Made by a program: the position numbers and the translations under genes. From Bradyrhizobium sp. (GTDB lineage Bacteria; Pseudomonadota; Alphaproteobacteria; Rhizobiales; Xanthobacteraceae), in contig JAUXWH010000158.1 of assembly GCA_030681365.1 (NCBI GenBank), forward strand, positions 20,379 to 84,378: a stretch of 64,000 nucleotides of DNA. Reading direction: 5' to 3'. This document shows, piece after piece, positions 30,196-41,070 of this stretch. Positions within the stretch are counted from its first letter, which is position 1, and each line of letters opens with the position of its first letter. The notes beneath the pieces were generated by a model, which was not told the origin of the DNA, ran no database searches, and saw only the letters and a list, made by a program, of their open reading frames with translations.

Positions 30196-30238
30196 CAATG
30201 GGGCCACGTGGCGGAGTGGTTACGCAACGGTCTGCAAA
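30196..30238 (+). repeat. attL: 43-bp direct repeat containing the 5' half of tRNA-Cys
   Basis: caatggggccacgtggcggagtggttacgcaacggtctgcaaa, identical to 40991-41033. Confidence 0.95.
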
Positions 30239-30356
30239 GACTATTCCGGCCGTAGCGGGTAGGGGCGGCCAGTACCGAAACGTCCCATTTCATAGGCGTT
30301 TCTGAGCGAGCCGCGCCCATCCCGTCCCTTGCAGTATTGGCCTGTTTTATTGAGTT

Positions 30357-30376
30357 GGGTGCCATTTCGGGTGCCA
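30357..30376 (+). promoter_or_regulatory. Candidate integrase arm-type sites (left): GGGTGCCA x2
   Basis: GGGTGCCA at 30357 and 30369, same orientation as the pair at 40921/40932. Confidence 0.55.
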
Positions 30377-30424
30377 ACTCCTCATCCATGGTCGGGGCCG
30401 ACGGGTTCGCCTTTCGAAGCCGAA

Positions 30425-30604
30425 CTAGCTGCTCCGCTTGGACATCTCTTCACGTAAATCCGCAATCGCCTGCCCGGTCTCTTCTAACGCGCCAACGAGG
30501 CCGCGCATGATCCCGTTGGCCTGTTCCTGCAGCTCGTTCTGCTTATCGACCGACTTTTGTAACTGATACAGCGCGTTTTCAAGGTCGGCGTGGTCATTGT
30601 CCAT
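30425..30604 (-). CDS. Small coiled-coil-like protein (59 aa)
   Basis: MDNDHADLENALYQLQKSVDKQNELQEQANGIMRGLVGALEETGQAIADLREEMSKRSS; internal ATG of a longer ORF. Confidence 0.6.
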   Translation of the reverse strand: MDNDHADLENALYQLQKSVDKQNELQEQANGIMRGLVGALEETGQAIADLREEMSKRSS

Positions 30605-30781
30605 GGTGCTTTCCATTCTGTTGTTTGCGGCGTAGCTTAGGCGCCGGCCGGGGTGCTGGTAACACCCCGACCGACTTGCCATCAACAGCCGTAAGCGGGC
30701 CGCCGATGACCGATTCCCCAGATACCACGAATCTAACTGGCTGCCCGCCTCGGCGTTTTCAACGCACAGGGAGGCTGAGCC

Positions 30782-31030
30782 ATGAGGTTCTTTGATCCAG
30801 GAAATGTCGCTGACTTTTTCGTCCACAATATCGAGCGCGTCGACAGCATGGGGAGCACGTCTCGGATCGTGTTCTGCACTCCCAAGTCTGATCGGGGCGA
30901 GACAGTCAACGAATCAGTTTTGTCGCTGATAGTACCGACCGACCAACTCGCCGGCATGGTAGGGAAGCTTATGCAGGCGCCGAGCGCTTCGATCACCCGC
31001 AAAGTCGAGAGCGACGAGGTTCTGCACTAG
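30782..31030 (+). CDS. Hypothetical protein (82 aa)
   Basis: MRFFDPGNVADFFVHNIERVDSMGSTSRIVFCTPKSDRGETVNESVLSLIVPTDQLAGMVGKLM; aggGAGGctgagccATG. Confidence 0.65.
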   Translation: MRFFDPGNVADFFVHNIERVDSMGSTSRIVFCTPKSDRGETVNESVLSLIVPTDQLAGMVGKLMQAPSASITRKVESDEVLH

Positions 31031-31056
31031 CCCGCGCGCCGGGCGGCGGGGGGTTA

Positions 31057-31977
31057 CTACTCCGCCGCCTCGCACCGGATCGTGGCCCGCAGCCGATACG
31101 CACGATTGTTACAGGCTGCGCTGCAATAGAGCGCGTTTTTCTTCGCGGGACAGAATGGCCGGCCACATATGGCGCAGGGCCTCTCGGGCGGCGGCGGAAC
31201 CGCATGGTAAGCCTTATTGTACGCCTTCACACCCGCCCGGCGGCAGTCAGGCGAACACCACTGGTTATGGGCGCGCGAAGGATAAAACTCCCTTCCGCAT
31301 TGCGCGCAAGGGCGCGGCTCAATGGCAAATTTCCGTTTCCCGGAGCAAGTGTGCGAGCAAAAGCGATAGCCTTGTGGCTTCCATAGCCGCTCGAATCGAG
31401 TGCCGCAGCCTTCGCAGATGTATTCGCCGACCGACTTTTGACGCGATTTGGTCCGAGCTGCCATGACGGCCCGCATGCCGGCCTCGCCCTCGATCTGTGT
31501 GAGCCGCCACCGGAACGCCGACTGAGCGGCGCTATTGCAAGTTCGGCTGCAAAACTTGGTTCCGTCACGGGCATCGGCATCGAGAGGCTTTCCGCAGCGC
31601 TGGCAAAGAACGTAGCGGGTCGCCGTGTATCCGTCCTGGCACCACTCGGGCTGACCTTCGTGCCACATCGGCCGCGTCGCACCGATGCGTCGCAGCGCCT
31701 CGCTGACGATGGCAGACGCACGAGCGTCAGCTTTGCTCCAAGTCATGCCTTCGAGGCAGAAGGTCGACCGCAGCCCATGTCGCACCGCGCCCTCGAATTG
31801 AAACCGGCTGGAATGTCCGGCTTCCAGAATCTCGATCGCGCGCGGGACCAGAATTTCATTATCTTTCCGGCTCAGATTTTCGCGCTTGCGCGGTGTCCCG
31901 GCGAGCGTGATCTCCGTGGACCGGCGGCCTGCACGCGACCGCAGGTACGCCGCCAATTGATGCGAGATTTGAAGCAT
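31057..31977 (-). CDS. Protein with four consecutive zinc-ribbon-like CxxC...CxxxC modules
   Basis: CQRCGKP..FCSRTC; CEGCGTRF..FCSHTC; CAQCGREF..WCSPDC; CAICGRPF..YCSAAC. Confidence 0.75.
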   Translation of the reverse strand: MLQISHQLAAYLRSRAGRRSTEITLAGTPRKRENLSRKDNEILVPRAIEILEAGHSSRFQFEGAVRHGLRSTFCLEGMTWSKADARASAIVSEALRRIGATRPMWHEGQPEWCQDGYTATRYVLCQRCGKPLDADARDGTKFCSRTCNSAAQSAFRWRLTQIEGEAGMRAVMAARTKSRQKSVGEYICEGCGTRFERLWKPQGYRFCSHTCSGKRKFAIEPRPCAQCGREFYPSRAHNQWCSPDCRRAGVKAYNKAYHAVPPPPERPCAICGRPFCPAKKNALYCSAACNNRAYRLRATIRCEAAE

Positions 31978-31986
31978 GGCGCGTCC

Positions 31987-33048
31987 TCATGCGTCCCCAA
32001 GGCTGCGCTCCCACGCGTCGTTCACATCGGTATCCGACAGTCCGGCTTCCTTGGCTTGCGCCAGCGCGGCAACGATGCCGGCGAAGGCACGTGCACGGCC
32101 GCCATGATCGACGGCGCCCGTCGGGGTGACGACATCGATGGACACCGAGCCGCCTAGCTTTGCGGTTGCTTCCTCGGCGAGCAGCGCGGCAATGGGCGAA
32201 AGGGTCCAGGTTGCGAGATGCCGTTGTGCTTCCCGTACAAGCGGCCCCTGAGCTTGATTGCTCCACAGGGCGGGTAGGACGCCGAACGCTTGCGATACCG
32301 CATCACGCGCAGCCGCAAGCGTTTCCGTCGACATCGTGCGCTCGAGGTCAGGCGAAAGGCTTGCCGGCTTCCAGTCGGTTTGCGGTACAGGGCCGCCAGC
32401 CGCTGAGACAGCAACGGATTCCCGCAGCAGGACTCGGCCCCTTTGACCTCGGAATGACCGTCCGAGCGCCGTGCTGTCGGTCTCCGCCTGTTCGGGCATA
32501 GGCACAACCTGGCTCCCGATCGGAGCTAATTCGAAAACCTCCTCCAAGGCGCTTTCGACGGCATGCAGGAGCCCAGCTGAGAGGCTGGAGCGACGCAGCG
32601 GTGCCGTCCCGCAATAAGGCGCCACCGGATCGCAACCGATCCTGACATGCAGCACCTCGCCCGCGAGAGCAGTCTGCGTGGTGCCTCCGCCGGCCTCGCT
32701 GATCGAGGCTCGATAAGCAACCGGCATTCCGTTGCGGGTCGACACTTCCCAATCCGAGCACGGCACCAGGCCATCGCGGATCAGGAAGACACTTTCGCCA
32801 CGCAGCGCCAGGCTGCGACCGATCAGGGCCATGGTGCGCCGGTCGAGCATGGTGGTGCCGCTCACGGCCGCCAAGCTGAGGCCGCCTTCCCACAGGCTGA
32901 CGCAGCTCTGCGCCGTCGCCGTCAATTCAGCGAGGCCGCGCCGGCCGGAGATGTACGCTTCGCGAGCTGCTATGATCTCGGCCGTAAAGCCGGACGCGGC
33001 GGAACGTTTCTCGGTGCGGCGAAACCAATTCAGAATACCCACCGTCAA
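31987..33048 (-). CDS. HK97-family phage portal protein
   Basis: 353 aa; MTVGILNWFRRTEKRS...GEVLHVRIGCDPVAPYCGTAPLRRSSLSAGLLHAVESALEEVF... Confidence 0.8.
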   Translation of the reverse strand: MTVGILNWFRRTEKRSAASGFTAEIIAAREAYISGRRGLAELTATAQSCVSLWEGGLSLAAVSGTTMLDRRTMALIGRSLALRGESVFLIRDGLVPCSDWEVSTRNGMPVAYRASISEAGGGTTQTALAGEVLHVRIGCDPVAPYCGTAPLRRSSLSAGLLHAVESALEEVFELAPIGSQVVPMPEQAETDSTALGRSFRGQRGRVLLRESVAVSAAGGPVPQTDWKPASLSPDLERTMSTETLAAARDAVSQAFGVLPALWSNQAQGPLVREAQRHLATWTLSPIAALLAEEATAKLGGSVSIDVVTPTGAVDHGGRARAFAGIVAALAQAKEAGLSDTDVNDAWERSLGDA

Positions 33049-33587
33049 GCCCTCCGATACGGACGCAGCAGATCGCCCGCGCCGCTATTCTGCATTGCGC
33101 GCGCCATCCATGACGCCACGCGGCTCACCTCGTGCGTCCTCACGCCAGGAATCTCTTCTCGCTCGGATGCCGCACCGGGCGCGCCGGGCTCGGCGGCGAA
33201 GTATTCGGCAAGCCGCCGGAACGCCTCATCGACGGCCGCCGGAACGACTCCGCCACCGACAGACGCGGAGAACCGATAGGGTCCACTTGCGGGAAGGTAG
33301 TAACCACCGAGCGGCGAAGCATCTAGTTCGGCCGTTTCCCATTCGCTCGCGCCGCACGACCAGACTTCGACCGTATCCATCGTTGCCGGCGTGAGCGGCG
33401 GGTGCCACTCGCCGCAGCCCTCGACGACCCACGTCACGTCGCGCGACGTCCAGCGGTGCGCGATGTATGTCTCGATCCGTTGCCAGATCATGTCGGAGTC
33501 GAGCGCCGCCGCAGCGGTGGAGAGGCCATCCGGCGCGTCGGGATAGTCAGCCGGAAGCGATTCCGTCTGTTGGATTGTGGTCAACAT
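33045..33587 (-). CDS. Putative head-tail connector / gp6-like protein
   Basis: 180 aa; ALDSDMIWQRIETYIAHRWTSRDVTWVVEGCGEWHPPLTPATMDTVEVW; position between protease and portal. Confidence 0.6.
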   Translation of the reverse strand: MLTTIQQTESLPADYPDAPDGLSTAAAALDSDMIWQRIETYIAHRWTSRDVTWVVEGCGEWHPPLTPATMDTVEVWSCGASEWETAELDASPLGGYYLPASGPYRFSASVGGGVVPAAVDEAFRRLAEYFAAEPGAPGAASEREEIPGVRTHEVSRVASWMARAMQNSGAGDLLRPYRRA

Positions 33588-34102
33588 TATGCCCTCCAGC
33601 GCGCGAGCGTGCGGTGCAGGCCGGCATCAAGCCGCTCGGAACGATGCCGCGCTTGCACAACCGTGCCGTCATAGGCGGGAAAGCTGCTCACGATCGAAAT
33701 CTCGTGAAGGTTGAGGCTGCGAAGCTCGCGGCGGCTGCCTTGCCAGCGCTCGCCGTCTTTTTGCACCGTGAAGCCAAAGGAAGCGCCGCCGACATCACCG
33801 CGCTCCGCCAGTTCAAGGATGTCTCGGCCGAACGAGGTGTTTGGCACGTCGAAATCGAAGTGCAGCCCGCGCGCGTCCTCTGCAAGACGAAGCGTGCCGC
33901 TCCTGGTGCGAGCCAGGACCGCCTTCGCTTCATGGTCGGCAAGGGCGAGAACGTCACGCCCTTCCCTTAGCGTGTCAGTGAAAGCGCCGGGCAGGATGAC
34001 CTCGGTGAAGTCACGGATGAGCGTGTCCTGCAGGAAGACGGCGGCATAGCCCTCCAGCCTCCGGCCGACTGCGCGTAGTTCGATGCCAACCCGGCGTTCC
34101 AT
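33587..34102 (-). CDS. HK97-family prohead protease
   Basis: MERRVGIELRAVGRRLEGYAAVFLQDTLIRDFTEVILPGAFTDTLREGRDVLALADHEAKAVLARTRSGTLRL. Confidence 0.9.
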   Translation of the reverse strand: MERRVGIELRAVGRRLEGYAAVFLQDTLIRDFTEVILPGAFTDTLREGRDVLALADHEAKAVLARTRSGTLRLAEDARGLHFDFDVPNTSFGRDILELAERGDVGGASFGFTVQKDGERWQGSRRELRSLNLHEISIVSSFPAYDGTVVQARHRSERLDAGLHRTLARWRA

Positions 34103-34107
34103 CTGTT

Positions 34108-35370
34108 TTACTCGACGTTGATCGCGGTCAACAAATGCAACTGCGCGAGCCGTGAAACCGCCACGTCGAAGGTGGCGATAGCCGTCAGGCGAAGCATGCC
34201 GCTCTGCGCGTCGCTGTAAGGATCGCGAATCAGATCGATCCCGCCCCATGATCCAATCCAGATCGGAGCGACACCGCCCGCACTCGTGGCGAGCAGCGCG
34301 ACCGAGGTATCCGGGGTCGCGGATGTCAGCGTCGCCTGCGACGACAGGACGTTGTTCTGCGCGGGGAAATTCTTGACATGCCGATCCCACTCGGAAACCG
34401 CGGTGCCCGTCACGAGCTCCGAGTCCATGAAGTTCCACATAGCGGGATGCATAAGAACCTTCACGTCCGCCGGGCTGTTCGCCGAGTTGGCGGTCATAAA
34501 CGTGCCAGCCACAGTGCGGAAGATGCTGGACGAAGCGTCGGCACTGATCGCGGTGGTGCCGTAGCCGTGCGTGCCCTGGCCGGAGATCACACCAACGGGC
34601 TGACCGTTCGCGCCGGTGCCGTTGAACACGCCAGTGTCGAGCACGGCCTGCATGGTGCCGGAAATGTCACGACGAACCGCTTGCTCCAGAGCGTCGCCGC
34701 TCTGTTTGAGCGACTTGCGCGTGATCTTGACCTGGATGCCCAGGTTATGGTCCGGCGACAGCGTGCGCTCAGTCGTGGCGAACACGGTCGGCCCCGCCAC
34801 GTTGGCGGTCTCGCCATCCGCCCAGCCTGCCGAAACGCTTGAGGTGGTCAGGGGGTATTCGACCAGGCCCGTGTCGATGTTGACCATCTGCGCGCCCATG
34901 CGAGCCGCCGCGCTATCCGGGAAGAGTCGATCGATAACCGGCCGTACCTGCTTCGGGTCGAAGATGCCGCTGGCGATTGTCTCGCCGACGCGCCGCTCCA
35001 GGGCGGCCCACGGAATCGGCAAACCGCGGTAACCTCCTTTGCTTCGCAGCTCCTGCACGACTTCAGCAGTCGCGCCATCGAGCACTCGGCCCTCGTCGAG
35101 AGCGAGCACCACCTGGCGCATCTCGAACTTGTTGACGAGATCGGAATATTCACGATCGCCACGGGTTTCGAGGCTGGCACCGGCTTCGCGGCGCTCGGTA
35201 TCCTCGGCGATCAACGCCGCACGAAAGCGCGCCTCATTCGTTTGGTACTCGGTATCGAGCTCAGTCATGCTGCGCTGTTCGGTTTCGTCCGGCTTTTCCT
35301 TGCCGACCAACGCGGCAAGGTGCTGACGAATCTCCGACTGACGTTTCTGAATCTTCACTGAGGTAAGCAA
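34108..35370 (-). CDS. HK97-family major capsid protein (probable TTG start)
   Basis: N-terminal coiled coil then EVVQELRSKGGYRGLPIPWAALERRV...VEYPLTTSSVSAGWADGETANVAG...; AAAGGAG upstream of TTG at 35370. Confidence 0.88.
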   Translation of the reverse strand: MLTSVKIQKRQSEIRQHLAALVGKEKPDETEQRSMTELDTEYQTNEARFRAALIAEDTERREAGASLETRGDREYSDLVNKFEMRQVVLALDEGRVLDGATAEVVQELRSKGGYRGLPIPWAALERRVGETIASGIFDPKQVRPVIDRLFPDSAAARMGAQMVNIDTGLVEYPLTTSSVSAGWADGETANVAGPTVFATTERTLSPDHNLGIQVKITRKSLKQSGDALEQAVRRDISGTMQAVLDTGVFNGTGANGQPVGVISGQGTHGYGTTAISADASSSIFRTVAGTFMTANSANSPADVKVLMHPAMWNFMDSELVTGTAVSEWDRHVKNFPAQNNVLSSQATLTSATPDTSVALLATSAGGVAPIWIGSWGGIDLIRDPYSDAQSGMLRLTAIATFDVAVSRLAQLHLLTAINVE

Positions 35371-35642
35371 GCTGTGTCTCCTTTCAGGAGGTCTATCCAC
35401 GCTTGGCGCGCGGGTGATGGAAGCTGGCCTCTTTCGGCCAGCGTTTCGGTGATGTGACAGGTGCGGCACAACGTAACGACGTTGCCCATGCTGAATGCGA
35501 GTGCGGGCTCCTGTCGCGCCCGGATCAGGTGATGAACTTCGAGGTTTGCAGGCGAGCCGCATTTCGTGCACTGCCAGCCGTCGCGCCGCTTGGCAGCGAA
35601 GCGTACGGCCTTCCAACGCTTATCGTTGTAGTTCATGCCCAT
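35355..35642 (-). CDS. HNH endonuclease
   Basis: RDGWQCTKCGSPANLEVHHLIRARQEPALAFSMGNVVTLCRTCH. Confidence 0.92.
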   Translation of the reverse strand: MGMNYNDKRWKAVRFAAKRRDGWQCTKCGSPANLEVHHLIRARQEPALAFSMGNVVTLCRTCHITETLAERGQLPSPARQAWIDLLKGDTACLPQ

Positions 35643-37174
35643 TGCGGCGCCTTCGCTTTGCGAATGGTGCGGCCTGCAACGCGCGATCCTTCTCCAATAG
35701 CCATTACGGTGGCCGTGGCGGCGTCGACGCGGGAGTGACTGCGAGCTTTCGCGATCTTCGCCGCGCCTGTCGGATCAACCAGCGTAATGCAATCGGCAAG
35801 TGCCGATCGTAGCAACAACGACGGCGCGACCGCGATGCGCTTGTCAAAGACGAACTGACGAAACCGCTCGACGTCCTCAGCGGAATCCTTCCAGCCCTGT
35901 CCGCGCCATGTCGGCACGACATTGAGGGACGTCTTCCCCAATGCTTCCAGAAACTCACTCTGACGAAATCGGTCACAGCAAATCGACTGGATGGCGTAGC
36001 CTTCGAGCTTGCCGATCATGGCGGAAACGAACGCGGGGATGTCGACCACCTGCTGGCCGCACACCATCAACTCGCCGGCTTCTTGCATCTGTTGATACCG
36101 GCCGCCGACACCATCATTCCGGCCGCGATCCAGCAATTCAGGCGAGGTTGGGAACGCGCCGTGGCATTCGAGCCGCCCGGTTTGCGGCCAATAATTGGTC
36201 CAGGCTGACATGGACGATGAGCCGCCCAAATCTATACCGACACAGAGCGGCCCGGAGCGCGGCGGAAGTGCCGCCGGCTGTACCTCACACGCCAGCCAGC
36301 GGTCGACGCTGATCAAGACCGCTCTGTTCTCGGCAGAACAGCGCTGATTGAGATGAAATAGGCGATAGTTTGAGAGCGCACTGCCACCACGCTGCACAGC
36401 GCGTCTGGCGGCTGCTTGCAGCCATTCGAGAGAGCCACCGATCCCTTCAGCGGCGCCCGGATTGGCAGCTAGAATTGCCTCCGCGCTGTCAGGCGTCAGG
36501 CCTTCCGGTGCGCGATACTCGGCGACGAAGATACCATCGCTAGGATCGTCGAGGAGCCGCGAGAATGGATGACTGTCCGATGGCGCCGAAGTCGAGATCA
36601 GCAACACCTTGCCGTTGCGCTTGCCGCACGCCGAGGTGATCGCGTTCTCGAGGCTGTCGCCCTTGTCGTCCGGCCAAAAACCTCTTTCGTCACATAACGC
36701 GAAGACAGGCGACAAGCCGAGCGCATTCTTCGCGTCCGACGCCAGAACGTCGAGCGTGTGTCCGCCACCGTCACTCGCGAAGCGAATTTGTAAGCGAGGA
36801 GCGCGGACGAACGTCAGAGCCTTGCGAACCTTGAGCGGAAGTGATTGCGCCAGGCCCTCGATGTACTTCCAGGCAATGGCGCCCTGATCCTTCGTTTTCG
36901 CCGCGATTAGCACAGAACGCCGCGGCTGCTTGTCGAGAACGCCAATCAACGACGCCAGCGCCAAGCCGGCGCCGAGCATGGTCTTCCCGTTGCCTCGGCC
37001 GACGCTGAGAGCGGCAATCGAGGTACCCTCAGCCAATGCGCCGCGAATCCAGGCCTTTTGAAATTCGGCCAGCCTGATCTTTTTCCCGGCAAGGGGACCT
37101 TCCGGGACCTTCAGGCCTTCGAGGAACGCAATTGCAGCCTCGGCCGCCGAGAGCGAATTTTTGCGAGGCCCCAT
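35633..37174 (-). CDS. Phage terminase large subunit (longer start at 37264 possible)
   Basis: FQKAWIRGALAEGTSIAALSVGRGNGKTMLGAGLALASLIG...LSPVFALCDERGFW; Walker-like motif and nuclease-domain pattern. Confidence 0.88.
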   Translation of the reverse strand: MGPRKNSLSAAEAAIAFLEGLKVPEGPLAGKKIRLAEFQKAWIRGALAEGTSIAALSVGRGNGKTMLGAGLALASLIGVLDKQPRRSVLIAAKTKDQGAIAWKYIEGLAQSLPLKVRKALTFVRAPRLQIRFASDGGGHTLDVLASDAKNALGLSPVFALCDERGFWPDDKGDSLENAITSACGKRNGKVLLISTSAPSDSHPFSRLLDDPSDGIFVAEYRAPEGLTPDSAEAILAANPGAAEGIGGSLEWLQAAARRAVQRGGSALSNYRLFHLNQRCSAENRAVLISVDRWLACEVQPAALPPRSGPLCVGIDLGGSSSMSAWTNYWPQTGRLECHGAFPTSPELLDRGRNDGVGGRYQQMQEAGELMVCGQQVVDIPAFVSAMIGKLEGYAIQSICCDRFRQSEFLEALGKTSLNVVPTWRGQGWKDSAEDVERFRQFVFDKRIAVAPSLLLRSALADCITLVDPTGAAKIAKARSHSRVDAATATVMAIGEGSRVAGRTIRKAKAPQWA

Positions 37175-37327
37175 GCGGTTGCCCACCCCAGAGGATTCTC
37201 GGGGATTGGCACCGTCGTGGGGGCATGCCAGTTTGGCGCTTGTGCTAGTTCGCCTTGAAGCCATGCAGCGAAATTACCCGCTGCGCGTATTGCTTCGCCA
37301 CCGGACGTCGGGACACGCAGTCAAGTG

Positions 37328-37882
37328 CTACCTACCTGGTAGATATATGTGTTCCGCTACAGCATCCGATGCAGTGTCAGAAACGGCCTCTACGCTTCCG
37401 CTACAGCATCCGTCAGCGGTATCTGATTGCAGGCTCGTTCCGCAGCAGCATCCGATCGCTTCCCCTACAGCATCCGTACGCTTCCGCTGGGGAAACCGTG
37501 CTTTGTTTTTCTCCGGCGTCCAACGCAGGAAGTCTTTGGTGGACAGTTCGTTGCTGACGTCGCACTTGAAGCACGTCAGGCGCCATTCGCTGGCGTGGCG
37601 AACCTTGAAACTGAAGGCGCCCTTCTTCACCGCCACGATGAAGCCGCGATCCTGCAAATCATCCAGCGCGCGCTTCGCGGTGGCGTTGCCGATGTGCAGT
37701 TCTCTGACGGCGCAGCGGATCGAGTAGCCGATCCTGCCGTTGTTGCTGCCGTGGTAGCGTTTGGCGATGTCGACGTAGACGGCGCGGGGGATAGCTCCCA
37801 GGCCCTTCCAGGCCTGGGAGTCCATCAGGTGATGGAAGATCATCACATGCCGCGGCGATTTATTGCGGGAGTGTTTGGCCAC
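37328..37882 (-). CDS. Putative winged-HTH replication/initiator-like protein
   Basis: 184 aa; IGYSIRCAVRELHIGNATAKRALDDLQDRGFIVAVKKGAFSFK wHTH-like; 3' end carries the iteron-like array. Confidence 0.6.
   Translation of the reverse strand: MAKHSRNKSPRHVMIFHHLMDSQAWKGLGAIPRAVYVDIAKRYHGSNNGRIGYSIRCAVRELHIGNATAKRALDDLQDRGFIVAVKKGAFSFKVRHASEWRLTCFKCDVSNELSTKDFLRWTPEKNKARFPQRKRTDAVGEAIGCCCGTSLQSDTADGCCSGSVEAVSDTASDAVAEHIYLPGR
37352..37498. repeat. Iteron-like array: 17-bp TTCCGCTACAGCATCCG repeats
   Basis: Starts at 37352 (exact), 37396 (exact), 37438 (2 mismatches), 37460 (1 mismatch), 37482 (degenerate); spacings 44, 42, 22, 22 bp. Confidence 0.8.
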
Positions 37883-37889
37883 GGCTGGG

Positions 37890-38183
37890 CTACTTCCTCA
37901 GCTTCTCAGCCATGCCTTCCATGAAGGCGGTGGCAAACTCTGGCGCGATGAAGACGAAGGTATCTTCATCAGGCCAGCTGCGTTGGCGGATGATTACCTC
38001 CCCGCTGCGGTTGCGATAAACGGCGGTCGCCCGCTGCTCCCGCAACACGATCGACTCCTCGTCAGGGTTGTTCCAGTCGAAGTCATCCTCTGAATGCGCC
38101 GGGATCACGACAGGATCGCGTACCTCGGCGTTCCCCGTAACGGTCGGCAGCGGCAATTCGTTCTTATTGAGAGGCTTAGTCAT
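37890..38183 (-). CDS. Hypothetical protein (97 aa)
   Basis: MTKPLNKNELPLPTVTGNAEVRDPVVIPAHSEDDFDWNNPDEESIVLREQRATAVYRN. Confidence 0.65.
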   Translation of the reverse strand: MTKPLNKNELPLPTVTGNAEVRDPVVIPAHSEDDFDWNNPDEESIVLREQRATAVYRNRSGEVIIRQRSWPDEDTFVFIAPEFATAFMEGMAEKLRK

Positions 38184-38505
38184 GGCGAGCCCTCCAGATC
38201 ATGACGCTGTTGCCTCCGGCGTTCTTTGTGCGATCCTCGGTGCGCTTCACCTTGCCGTCGCGGTACAACTCGCTGATCCGGGGACGGACGGCATACTGCG
38301 TCAGGCCGACACGCTTGCCGATCTCCTCGGAGCAGAGGCCACTAGGCTCAGCCTGGAGCGCAGCCAGGATCATGTCGCGATGGCTGCTTGCGATGCCTGC
38401 AATGCGATCGGCAGCCTTGAAGGCCGTTTCGGGTGATCCGGCTTTAGTGCCGGGACTGTCGGGGTAAGCCGCCCTTGCGGTTGGCTCGGCAAAACTGTAT
38501 TTCAT
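38176..38505 (-). CDS. Winged-HTH domain protein
   Basis: DMILAALQAEPSGLCSEEIGKRVGLTQYAVRPRISELYRDGKVKRTEDRTKN. Confidence 0.7.
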   Translation of the reverse strand: MKYSFAEPTARAAYPDSPGTKAGSPETAFKAADRIAGIASSHRDMILAALQAEPSGLCSEEIGKRVGLTQYAVRPRISELYRDGKVKRTEDRTKNAGGNSVMIWRARHD

Positions 38506-38581
38506 TGATGTTCTCTCTTTTTCCAAGTTGGGGGGAATTGAAGGTCCGGGCGCCGCCCCAGCGCTTCGGGCCTTCGTCGTT

Positions 38582-38812
38582 TCAGGCGACATCGGGCCAG
38601 GCGACAAGCGGCAGGCCGAGGCGAATGCGGGCTTCGTGATCGCGCTCGCGGGCCTCCTCGACGCGCGGCAGCACCATCACGCGGTTCAGTGACGGCTCCT
38701 CGTAGAACACGCGTAGGAGGCCGCTACTGGCCCAACGCGAGACGGTGCGTTCCGACTTGCCGAGATCGTGGGCGATACGGCGCCTGCCGCGGATGGAGTG
38801 GCGGCTGCTCAT
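38582..38812 (-). CDS. Small HTH DNA-binding protein (76 aa)
   Basis: RRRIAHDLGKSERTVSRWASSGLLRVFYEEPSLNRVMVL. Confidence 0.65.
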   Translation of the reverse strand: MSSRHSIRGRRRIAHDLGKSERTVSRWASSGLLRVFYEEPSLNRVMVLPRVEEARERDHEARIRLGLPLVAWPDVA

Positions 38813-39006
38813 TAGGCTGCCTCCACTTTCTTTGCTGCGTCGTCGAGCATCTGTTCGAGGGCGCGAACGGGCACCCGCAAAAGCTTTCCGATCTTGATTG
38901 TTGGAATTTCGCCGCGCTCGGCGGCGGCATAGGCGGCATTACGGCTCAATTCAAAGTATCGCTTACCCGCTTCCGGTACCGAAAGCGTAAGGGGAATGTC
39001 GTCCAT
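38812..39006 (-). CDS. Excisionase/AlpA-like HTH protein (64 aa)
   Basis: MDDIPLTLSVPEAGKRYFELSRNAAYAAAERGEIPTIKIGKLLRVPVRALEQML. Confidence 0.75.
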   Translation of the reverse strand: MDDIPLTLSVPEAGKRYFELSRNAAYAAAERGEIPTIKIGKLLRVPVRALEQMLDDAAKKVEAA

Positions 39007-39082
39007 CGATAGCTCCTATTTGGTTCGACCGAGAACTAATATGGACAAAGCGGGACGCGTCTGCCATACTGTTTTCGTGCGA

Positions 39083-39104
39083 TTTGTATAAGTCGCTATA
39101 CAAA
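39083..39104. promoter_or_regulatory. Candidate operator: 8-bp inverted repeat TTTGTATA-N6-TATACAAA in the divergent promoter region
   Basis: Perfect arms; lies 15 bp before the RHH-like gene and faces the divergent HTH operon. Confidence 0.65.
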
Positions 39105-39118
39105 ATAAGGAACAGAGC

Positions 39119-39790
39119 ATGGCACCGAGAAAGCGCGCACCCGGCGGGGGTCGGAAGCCCCTCGACCCCATAGCCAAGACCGCCAACTTCTCGACCCGGT
39201 GTACGCCCGAAATGCGCGCACGGTTGGAGGCCCTTGCGGCCGAGAAGGGAAAGTCAATTTCACAGATTTCGGAAAAGATTCTAGAGTTGGGCCTGCAGCA
39301 ATACGCCAACGATCAGCTGTCTAGCCCGATCCGCGCGTTGGCATATTTGCTTCGGTTGCTCGCGCTTCGATGCAGCTACGTCGATACGAGTGTTTCGGAC
39401 GATGATCGAGAGTGGCACAACGATCCGTTTGCGTTCGATGCATTCGCTCGCGCTATCCAAATGCTGCTTGAGCGGATTCGTCCCGCAGGCGAGATCAAGA
39501 CGCCGAAAGAGGTCTTTCCCGGACTTCCAACTTGGCCAACCTCAGAGAGGCAGGCGGAGGTAGCGTTTGCAGATGTTTGGCGTCAGGTGATGACTCTCGA
39601 GCCCATCAGCAAGACAAAAGTGATCGATCGCGACAAACAGCCGAGCAAGGCAAAAGAGCTTGCCGCACAACGCGGCTGGAAACTTGGTCCGATATCGGAC
39701 GAATGGGCCGGCCGCATTTCAGGACGTTCCTATTCGATGGACGACATACGCCGCACGTTTGGAATCAAATCAGAGGTGAAGAAATCATGA
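39119..39790 (+). CDS. Ribbon-helix-helix-like N-terminus, hypothetical regulator
   Basis: MAPRKRAPGGGRKPLDPIAKTANFSTRCTPEMRARLEALAAEKGKSISQISEKILELGL. Confidence 0.7.
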   Translation: MAPRKRAPGGGRKPLDPIAKTANFSTRCTPEMRARLEALAAEKGKSISQISEKILELGLQQYANDQLSSPIRALAYLLRLLALRCSYVDTSVSDDDREWHNDPFAFDAFARAIQMLLERIRPAGEIKTPKEVFPGLPTWPTSERQAEVAFADVWRQVMTLEPISKTKVIDRDKQPSKAKELAAQRGWKLGPISDEWAGRISGRSYSMDDIRRTFGIKSEVKKS

Positions 39791-40914
39791 AGGGCCACAT
39801 TCAACAACGCGGCAAACACTCTTGGCGCCTGAAGTTCGATGCCGGCCGTGACGAAAAGACGGGCGAGCGCCGCTCTCAATTCGTCACGTTTCGCGGCACC
39901 AAGCGCGAAGCACAGGTCAAGATGGCTGAGCTGATCGCGTCGGTCGCGCAAGCCAAATATGTAGAGCCTCACAAGACCACCGTTACCGAATGGGTGCGCG
40001 CTCGCGTGGACCATTGGGAGGCCTCGAGCGAGATCAGCGCACGGACGGCGCAACGCTATCGACAATTGGTCGAGCACCAGATCGTACCGCATATCGGCGC
40101 GAAGCTGCTGCAAAAGTTGCGAACACTTGATATCGAGGGATGGCACGCGACGTTGCGGACAAGCGGGCGGGTACGAGGGAAGGGCGATCTATCGGCCCGC
40201 ACCGTTGGCCATGCGCATCGCGTTCTCAACAAAGCGCTGCGAGAGGCCACCAAGAACGAGCTAGTCACCAAGAACGTGGTCGCACTTGAAGCCGCGCCAA
40301 AGGTCGCCAGCGAAGAAATGGAGATCGTGCAGGACGTGCCGGCCTTCGTTGAAAAGATGCGGGGCCACCGCCTATTCACCATGGGAATGATCGGGCTGTT
40401 GACAGGCATGCGGCTCGGCGAAGTGTTGGCGCTGCGTTGGGGCAGGGTGGACATTGACGGGAAGGTAATTCAGGTCCGGGAGGCGCTGGAGGCGACCAAG
40501 AAATACGGCATCCGGTTCAAGGTGCCGAAATCGAAGGCCGGCCGCCGCGACATCACCTTGCCCGATTTGCTGGTCGACGCACTGCGCGACTTCCGGCGGG
40601 AGCAACTGGAATTGCGGCTCAAGCTTGGATCCGGGAAGCTGCCCGACGACGGCCTTCTGTTTGGGAACGTCGAAGGTGAACCGCGCTCGCCGTCGTCGGT
40701 CTCGCGCGCTTGGGGCGATGCTACGGGCGTTGGCTACCACAACCTGCGCCACACCCACGCTAGCCAGCTTATCGCCGCAGATGTGGATATTGTCACGATT
40801 AGCAAGCGGCTCGGGCATGCGAGCCCGGCAATTACTCTTGCGGTCTACGCGCACATGTTCAATAAGACCGACGCCAAGGCGGCAGCGGCGATCAATGCGG
40901 CGCTGAATCGCTAA
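39787..40914 (+). CDS. int: Tyrosine site-specific recombinase (integrase)
   Basis: MKGHIQQRGKHSWRLKFDAGRDEKTGERRS...LLTGMRLGEVLALRW...YHNLRHTHASQLIAADVDIVTISKRLGHASPAITLAVYAH. Confidence 0.96.
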   Translation: MKGHIQQRGKHSWRLKFDAGRDEKTGERRSQFVTFRGTKREAQVKMAELIASVAQAKYVEPHKTTVTEWVRARVDHWEASSEISARTAQRYRQLVEHQIVPHIGAKLLQKLRTLDIEGWHATLRTSGRVRGKGDLSARTVGHAHRVLNKALREATKNELVTKNVVALEAAPKVASEEMEIVQDVPAFVEKMRGHRLFTMGMIGLLTGMRLGEVLALRWGRVDIDGKVIQVREALEATKKYGIRFKVPKSKAGRRDITLPDLLVDALRDFRREQLELRLKLGSGKLPDDGLLFGNVEGEPRSPSSVSRAWGDATGVGYHNLRHTHASQLIAADVDIVTISKRLGHASPAITLAVYAHMFNKTDAKAAAAINAALNR

Positions 40915-40920
40915 ACGCCA

Positions 40921-40939
40921 GGGTGCCAATTGGGTGCCA
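40921..40939 (+). promoter_or_regulatory. Candidate integrase arm-type sites (right): GGGTGCCA x2
   Basis: GGGTGCCAATTGGGTGCCAA immediately after the int stop. Confidence 0.55.
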
Positions 40940-40996
40940 ACTTCGTGGTTTGTTCTCTCGGGAATGCCCGCTAAGTGCTTGATAAGTCTACAATGG

Positions 40997-41070
40997 GGCC
41001 ACGTGGCGGAGTGGTTACGCAACGGTCTGCAAAACCGTGCACTCGGGTTCGATTCCCGACGTGGCCTCCA
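40997..41070 (+). tRNA. tRNA-Cys (GCA)
   Basis: ggccacg...cgtggcc acceptor stem, ctGCAaa anticodon loop, U73 discriminator, encoded CCA. Confidence 0.95.

Follow-up and report, generated by a model that had tools for sequence, protein, structure and literature searches.

A probable capsid-forming phage satellite at tRNA-Cys in Bradyrhizobium and its family of tail-less islands of about 10.4 kb in Alphaproteobacteria

What is an island that occupies a bacterial tRNA gene and carries the genes for a phage head, but none recognisable for a tail? The question is raised by a stretch of 64,000 nucleotides from Bradyrhizobium sp. (contig JAUXWH010000158.1, positions 20,379 to 84,378; hereafter the window), in which positions 30196-41033 hold an element of about 10.8 kb that ends in perfect 43-bp direct repeats (CAATGGGGCCACGTGGCGGAGTGGTTACGCAACGGTCTGCAAA). 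An original prediction, made from the letters of the sequence, had named two candidates, namely a satellite resembling the capsid-forming phage-inducible chromosomal islands (cf-PICIs) and a recent prophage remnant. Our analysis favours, with a probability of roughly 0.86, an integrated capsid-forming phage satellite that makes its own HK97-type head and takes its tails from helper phages. The window island belongs to a large clade of elements that hold the same module at a constant size of about 10.4 kb.

The head and packaging genes lie on the minus strand in the order TerL-HNH-MCP-protease-adaptor-portal, with the portal last, and neighbouring genes overlap or are separated by no more than 5 bp. 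The HK97-type terminase large subunit (TerL, 35633-37264) was identified by phrog_9 (5e-60), PF20441 (7e-12), alignment and a phylogenetic tree; its first ATG is at 37264, the likelier start at 37174. It is accompanied by an HNH endonuclease as packaging partner (35355-35642; phrog_144, 1.5e-15), an HK97-fold major capsid protein (MCP) of 420 aa with an N-terminal delta-like domain (34108-35370; PF05065, 2e-15, and alignment) and an S78 head-maturation protease (33587-34102; PF04586, 1.6e-38). The head-tail adaptor of 180 aa (33045-33587), the "connector" of the original prediction, has itself no PHROG or Pfam family match. PHROG head-tail adaptor matches (phrog_442) were found in 9 of the 29 members of its family, and its AlphaFold2 model (pLDDT 89) resembles the neck of the Rhodobacter gene transfer agent (RcGTA), the best match in the PDB, as well as other phage necks. 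The portal protein (351 aa, 31987-33042) is weak by sequence, its PF04860 match (5e-8) falling under the curated cut-off; an AlphaFold model of the portal family (mean pLDDT 71, core over 90) has the HK97 portal as its top Foldseek match in the PDB (E 8e-8, probability 1.0). A PDB sequence search returned a single weak capsid match. These results agree with the earlier calls of the head and packaging genes and with the description of the head genes as uninterrupted and coupled; all open reading frames (ORFs) are open.

The ends of the island had been placed exactly. The left repeat (attL, 30196-30238) corresponds to the 5' half of tRNA-Cys, and the second copy (attR, 40991-41033) lies within the intact tRNA-Cys gene (40997-41070), of which it forms the 5' half. 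Repeats of at least 14 bp overlapping a tRNA were found in 45 of 57 family loci (79%) as compared to 5.4% of mismatched left/right pairs, and because true pairs far exceed mismatched ones the att pair in the window is not due to chance. Once joined, the window flanks align gap-free to congeners (91% in G736), and empty attB sites therefore exist. The 3' half of the tRNA-Cys gene (41034-41070) shows paired T-arm changes relative to four congeners (CGGGTTCGATTCCCG versus CCAGTTCAATTCTGG), and these differences, despite the matching flanks, are a sign of earlier exchange at the tRNA-Cys site.

Relatives of the island were found at two scales. The TerL search, which covered 300 genomes of the same bacterial family, returned seven loci at 50-59% identity followed by a gap down to 32%. 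At each of the seven the complete module was found in unchanged order, flanked by repeats that correspond to ends of tRNA-Ser, Asn, Glu or Lys and lie 10.4-11.0 kb from each other. When 85,462 species genomes were scanned for the portal, 97 relatives were obtained, 80 of which were kept. Their hosts are mostly Rhodobacterales and Hyphomicrobiales, together with Sphingomonadales, Hyphomonadales and one member of the Reyranellaceae, and a few of them sit on contigs filed under gammaproteobacterial metagenome-assembled genomes (MAGs); the islands span at least four alphaproteobacterial orders. Close relatives occur in the cultured hosts Mesorhizobium, Rhizobium, Paracoccus and roseobacters; the island is intact in, for instance, Rhizobium sp. 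P32RR-XVIII (L054), Mesorhizobium sp. B2-7-2 (L060) and Paracoccus endophyticus (L110). In surveys of good genomes the portal was present in 8 of 383 from the order (about 2% of sampled Hyphomicrobiales species) and in 5 of 391 from the phylum, where all matches were alphaproteobacterial. The genome-contig relatives are colinear with the window module, with the exception of one locus (L056) that lacks the terL-mcp part.

Repeats defined both ends of 51 islands, which measure 10,387 ± 415 bp (range 9.3-11.1 kb, a spread of 4%) and have 12 tRNA isotypes as integration targets. Portal, MCP, TerL and HNH were each present in all 51, the integrase in 50 and the protease in 49. All 51 encoded one of two adaptor families and never both, 32 the family of the window island and 19 a second PHROG adaptor family, while an Hc1 stopper was not detectable in 24. 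Portals of only 26-30% identity still sit in 10.5-kb tRNA islands. IMG/VR added 193 distinct viral contigs (median 9.7 kb, longest stretch 18 kb), 189 of them with a colinear module and the remaining four circular, tandem or permuted. The compact, tail-less TerL-to-portal module that the original prediction had proposed to look for is thus found in colinear, att-bounded islands, which supports its proposal of an alphaproteobacterial satellite with head genes of its own.

The search for tails gave a consistent picture. A search of 50,697 phage genomes gave no match to the portal, and in none of the phages, the 80 genome loci or the 193 viral contigs did the TerL-to-portal module stand beside tail genes. 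Among the nearest tail-bearing phages TerL identity is about 27%, MCP identity at most 28% among the matches listed, and portal similarity is absent. In a TerL tree built without three wrong-frame ORFs, the family forms one side of a fully supported branch (SH-aLRT 100) that separates it from HK022, 16-3 and other phage-type TerLs. PHROG and Pfam searches recognised no tail, lysis or tape-measure gene in the window island, in line with the original prediction. No tail family was among the 25 commonest PHROG/Pfam families of 140 island ORF representatives and 103 post-portal ORFs (243 ORFs in all); families seen instead were Hc1 stoppers, adaptors, initiators, AlpA and integrases. The absence of tails is also supported by the island sizes, since these leave no room for one. 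Having head genes of its own and no recognisable tail, the family would therefore have to borrow the tails of helper phages.

The other genes of the window island indicate integration, regulation and replication. On the plus strand are a tyrosine integrase of 375 aa (39787-40914; PHROG integrase 5e-60, PF00589 1e-16) and a ribbon-helix-helix regulator of up to 223 aa with an Arc-like N-terminus (39119-39790; phrog_3431, 1.7e-5). The minus strand encodes an HTH_17/excisionase (AlpA-like) regulator of 64 aa (38812-39006; PF12728 7e-7, PHROG excisionase 1.6e-4), a small helix-turn-helix (HTH) protein of 76 aa with a homologue in L051 (38582-38812), which reads as a regulator apart from a very weak HTH resemblance to the small terminase (TerS) family phrog_57 (E=0.097), a winged-helix DNA-binding protein of 109 aa (38176-38505; phrog_1123, 4e-14), an orphan ORF of 97 aa (37890-38183) and a putative lambda-O-like, winged-helix replication initiator of 184 aa from a three-member island family (37328-37882; phrog_345, weak, E 0.008). 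Inside the initiator gene lie four iterons of about 17 bp at a spacing of 44, 42 and 22 bp (37352-37476), as compared to 0.29 such sites expected per 64 kb; they are a candidate replication origin. The lambda origin sits inside the O gene. The initiator genes of the relatives L125 and L128 do not contain the iterons.

Between the portal and the left end, the minus strand encodes a multi-zinc-finger/HNH-like accessory protein of 306 aa (31057-31977; phrog_1271, 1.5e-16) with several CxxC zinc-finger pairs, which adjoins the portal in six islands, and a coiled-coil-like ORF of 63 aa common to three other islands (30425-30616; cluster c20). An ORF of 82 aa on the plus strand (30782-31030) has no PHROG or Pfam family match. 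PADLOC detected no defence system; its matches to HNH and winged-helix proteins are generic. The earlier gene inventory stands as called, with PHROG and Pfam confirming the integrase and the excisionase-like, HTH and ribbon-helix-helix regulators and a weak O-like match backing the replication gene; the iterons and the 306-aa and 97-aa ORFs are additions to it.

Circular, tandem or permuted copies were seen in four metagenomic contigs of the virus database, whose units measure 9.6-10.7 kb. L197 is a circular form (127-bp terminal repeat, unit of 9,639 bp) with no recognised integrase, L295 is a tandem with two copies about 10,406 bp apart, L296 is permuted with an integrase-like ORF within, and the fourth, L327, measures 10,699 bp. 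Unit-length free DNA of the family therefore exists in nature. We propose that growth of a helper phage would relieve the regulators, that the integrase and the excisionase-like protein would excise a circle, and that the O-like initiator might replicate it from the iterons in its own gene. TerL and HNH would package one unit of about 10.4-10.8 kb into a small capsid that the satellite itself makes (about T=3, ~43 nm). The satellite's adaptor, seated on its portal, would then dock the neck and tail of a helper siphophage, and lysis would be supplied by the helper. The near-identical island sizes point to an unusually small capsid of tailed-phage type. A published model gives a T=3 HK97-fold capsid a content of 11.8 kb (95% confidence interval 8.1-17.1; PMC7762592), a range that includes the island size of 10.4-10.8 kb, and the head is thus predicted to have a T of about 3.

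The same bacterial family contains a second, distinct lineage of tail-less, compact integrase-TerL-capsid-adaptor-portal islands, whose TerL is about 30% identical to that of the window. Its gene set comprises TerL, capsid, Ad1, protease, portal, Hc1 and integrase, and no tail; an example of 11.2 kb lies at tRNA-Arg in Afipia (L041:15025 to L040:10852), and further loci are L042, L043, L046 and L038/L039 (11.6 kb, tRNA-Gly). An interpretation of the TerL matches at about 30% as ordinary phages was rejected, as several belong to this lineage; the gene content of two others, L044 and L045, suggests full phages. The protease of the window shares 48-61% identity with second-lineage proteases and 63% with that of the Reyranella island L059, which shows the same swap, but only 23-36% with nearly all proteases of its own family. 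It represents a single-gene swap (33587-34102) in a head operon that otherwise belongs to lineage A. Relatives in the second lineage were also found for two accessory ORFs of the window, for the 97-aa ORF in L039 and L046 (45-48% identity) and for the 306-aa ORF in L046. The protease allele and the shared accessory ORFs therefore indicate that head genes move between satellite lineages. The shortened member L056 (Afipia sp. Root123D2), which encodes integrase, protease, adaptor and portal without the TerL-capsid stretch, shares its contig with a second-lineage island.

How well do other explanations account for these data? HK97-like head genes with neither tails nor lysis are what an ordinary prophage would leave behind after deletion of its tail, lysis and early genes. 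Decay of this kind would not be expected to produce 51 islands of the same content with matching att repeats, intact ORFs and a size spread of 4%, and the constant-size module recurs in the 193 viral contigs. The same module inside a full-length tailed prophage was sought and not found, no tail-bearing relative appeared in any of the collections searched, and even portals of 26-30% identity sit in tRNA islands of 10.5 kb. The prophage-remnant reading is therefore largely refuted, its "recent" form included, and we consider it very improbable. A minimal virus that needs no helper, being equipped with an unrecognised tail or entry device of its own, and that is hence no satellite, could draw on the small ORFs without assigned family and on relatives that occur as free circles without recognised integrase. 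However, less than about 3 kb are left beyond the genes for head, integration, replication and regulation, no tape measure, tube, tip or lysin family was detected, and the adaptors (in relatives also the stoppers) have tail-joining as their only known job; such a virus appears improbable. A domesticated head cluster similar to a gene transfer agent (GTA) is the least credible explanation. GTAs are typical of Alphaproteobacteria and the adaptor fold is nearest to the Rhodobacter GTA neck, but a GTA would be a head-tail cluster without integrase or att, whereas this element has its own integrase, att sites, initiator and iterons, and its family has circular free forms, is scattered over many tRNA sites and lacks the tail genes that GTAs possess.

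Several points weigh against an active satellite. A helper phage, induction or particle is not known for the element, and the source assembly, a MAG of 68% completeness, is too partial for a verdict on resident helpers. PHROG and Pfam gave no convincing TerS in the window, as the original prediction had noted, with resemblances limited to the HTH of the 76-aa ORF (E=0.097) and two TerS-like post-portal ORFs in relatives. An Hc1 stopper was not detected in the window copy, and its TerL sits on a fairly long branch of the tree. Together with the protease from another lineage, the missing stopper and the divergent TerL might mean that the family is functional and the window copy inactive. We regard this as rather unlikely: all ORFs are open and coupled, attL equals attR over 43 bp, Hc1 is undetectable in about half of the islands, and L059 has the same protease allele, so that the swap is evidently tolerated.

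The capsid-forming satellite thus remains the preferred reading of the window island, and its family appears to be a widespread branch of phage satellites in Alphaproteobacteria that has not been described before. The satellite group to which it adds is known mainly from Enterobacteria and Firmicutes. We would give even odds to a broader scenario, an old and diverse alphaproteobacterial radiation of at least two lineages in which about 10.4 kb are kept because of T=3 HK97-fold capsids, an architecture reported missing among tailed phages, in which lineages exchange head genes and certain members exist as circles that have no recognised integrase. A tailed HK97-type capsid of T=3 has been predicted but not observed, and the fixed genome of about 10.4 kb makes the family a good candidate for it. 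Because close relatives occur in cultured hosts, direct tests of induction, tail theft and capsid geometry are feasible. A public virus database lists hundreds of these satellite-sized elements as virus contigs. A literature search of incomplete coverage found no description of such elements in Alphaproteobacteria; a preprint on the marine element "Charybdis" proved unrelated, and a "capsid protein anchoring widespread viral elements" has reportedly been claimed for ocean viromes and could overlap.

Compared to known systems, the element shares the fold families of TerL, MCP, S78 protease and portal with HK97-like siphophages (HK97/HK022, Rhizobium phage 16-3), but differs from them at the identities given above, and these phages have tails and best-matching records listed at 31-69 kb. 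With RcGTA it shares the adaptor fold, whereas RcGTA has tails and neither integrase nor att, and packages host DNA. PICMI, P4 and PLE satellites are likewise helper-dependent islands of similar size, but depend on helper-made capsid proteins and not on their own (PMC10803314, PMC11389934). The Streptomyces satellites MulchRoom and MiniFlayer encode capsid, portal, terminase and head-tail adaptor themselves, and their small capsids of ~43 nm (PMC10690885) match the diameter predicted for T=3. They differ in being actinobacterial, in their virulent helpers and in terminal repeats of ~1 kb, and show no significant homology to cf-PICIs (PMC10690885). Closest are the cf-PICIs of the EcCIEDL933 type, tail-less satellite islands that contain integrase, AlpA-type regulator, replication gene, MCP, protease, portal, connector, TerL and HNH (PMC10690885). 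The window island has its own MCP, prohead protease, portal, head-tail connector (adaptor), TerL and HNH, an AlpA/Xis regulator (HTH_17, 7e-7; AlpA, PF05930, is present among relatives) and a weakly matching O-like initiator (0.008) with iterons. However, cf-PICIs average ~14 kb (PMC10803314) as compared to about 10.4 kb here, the portal stands last in our gene order, no TerS was recognised, and the listed cf-PICI hosts (Enterobacteriaceae, Pasteurella, Morganellaceae and Firmicutes) include no Alphaproteobacteria (PMC10803314). The term cf-PICI-like from the original prediction therefore holds for the way of working, while it is not proven that the element formally belongs to the cf-PICI lineages described so far, because no TerS was found, the size is smaller, the order differs, the host class is unlisted and the comparison was one of gene content, order and size. 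Three origins are reported for the capsids of cf-PICIs (PMC11389934), and those of this family may represent an additional one or branch off from one of these three.

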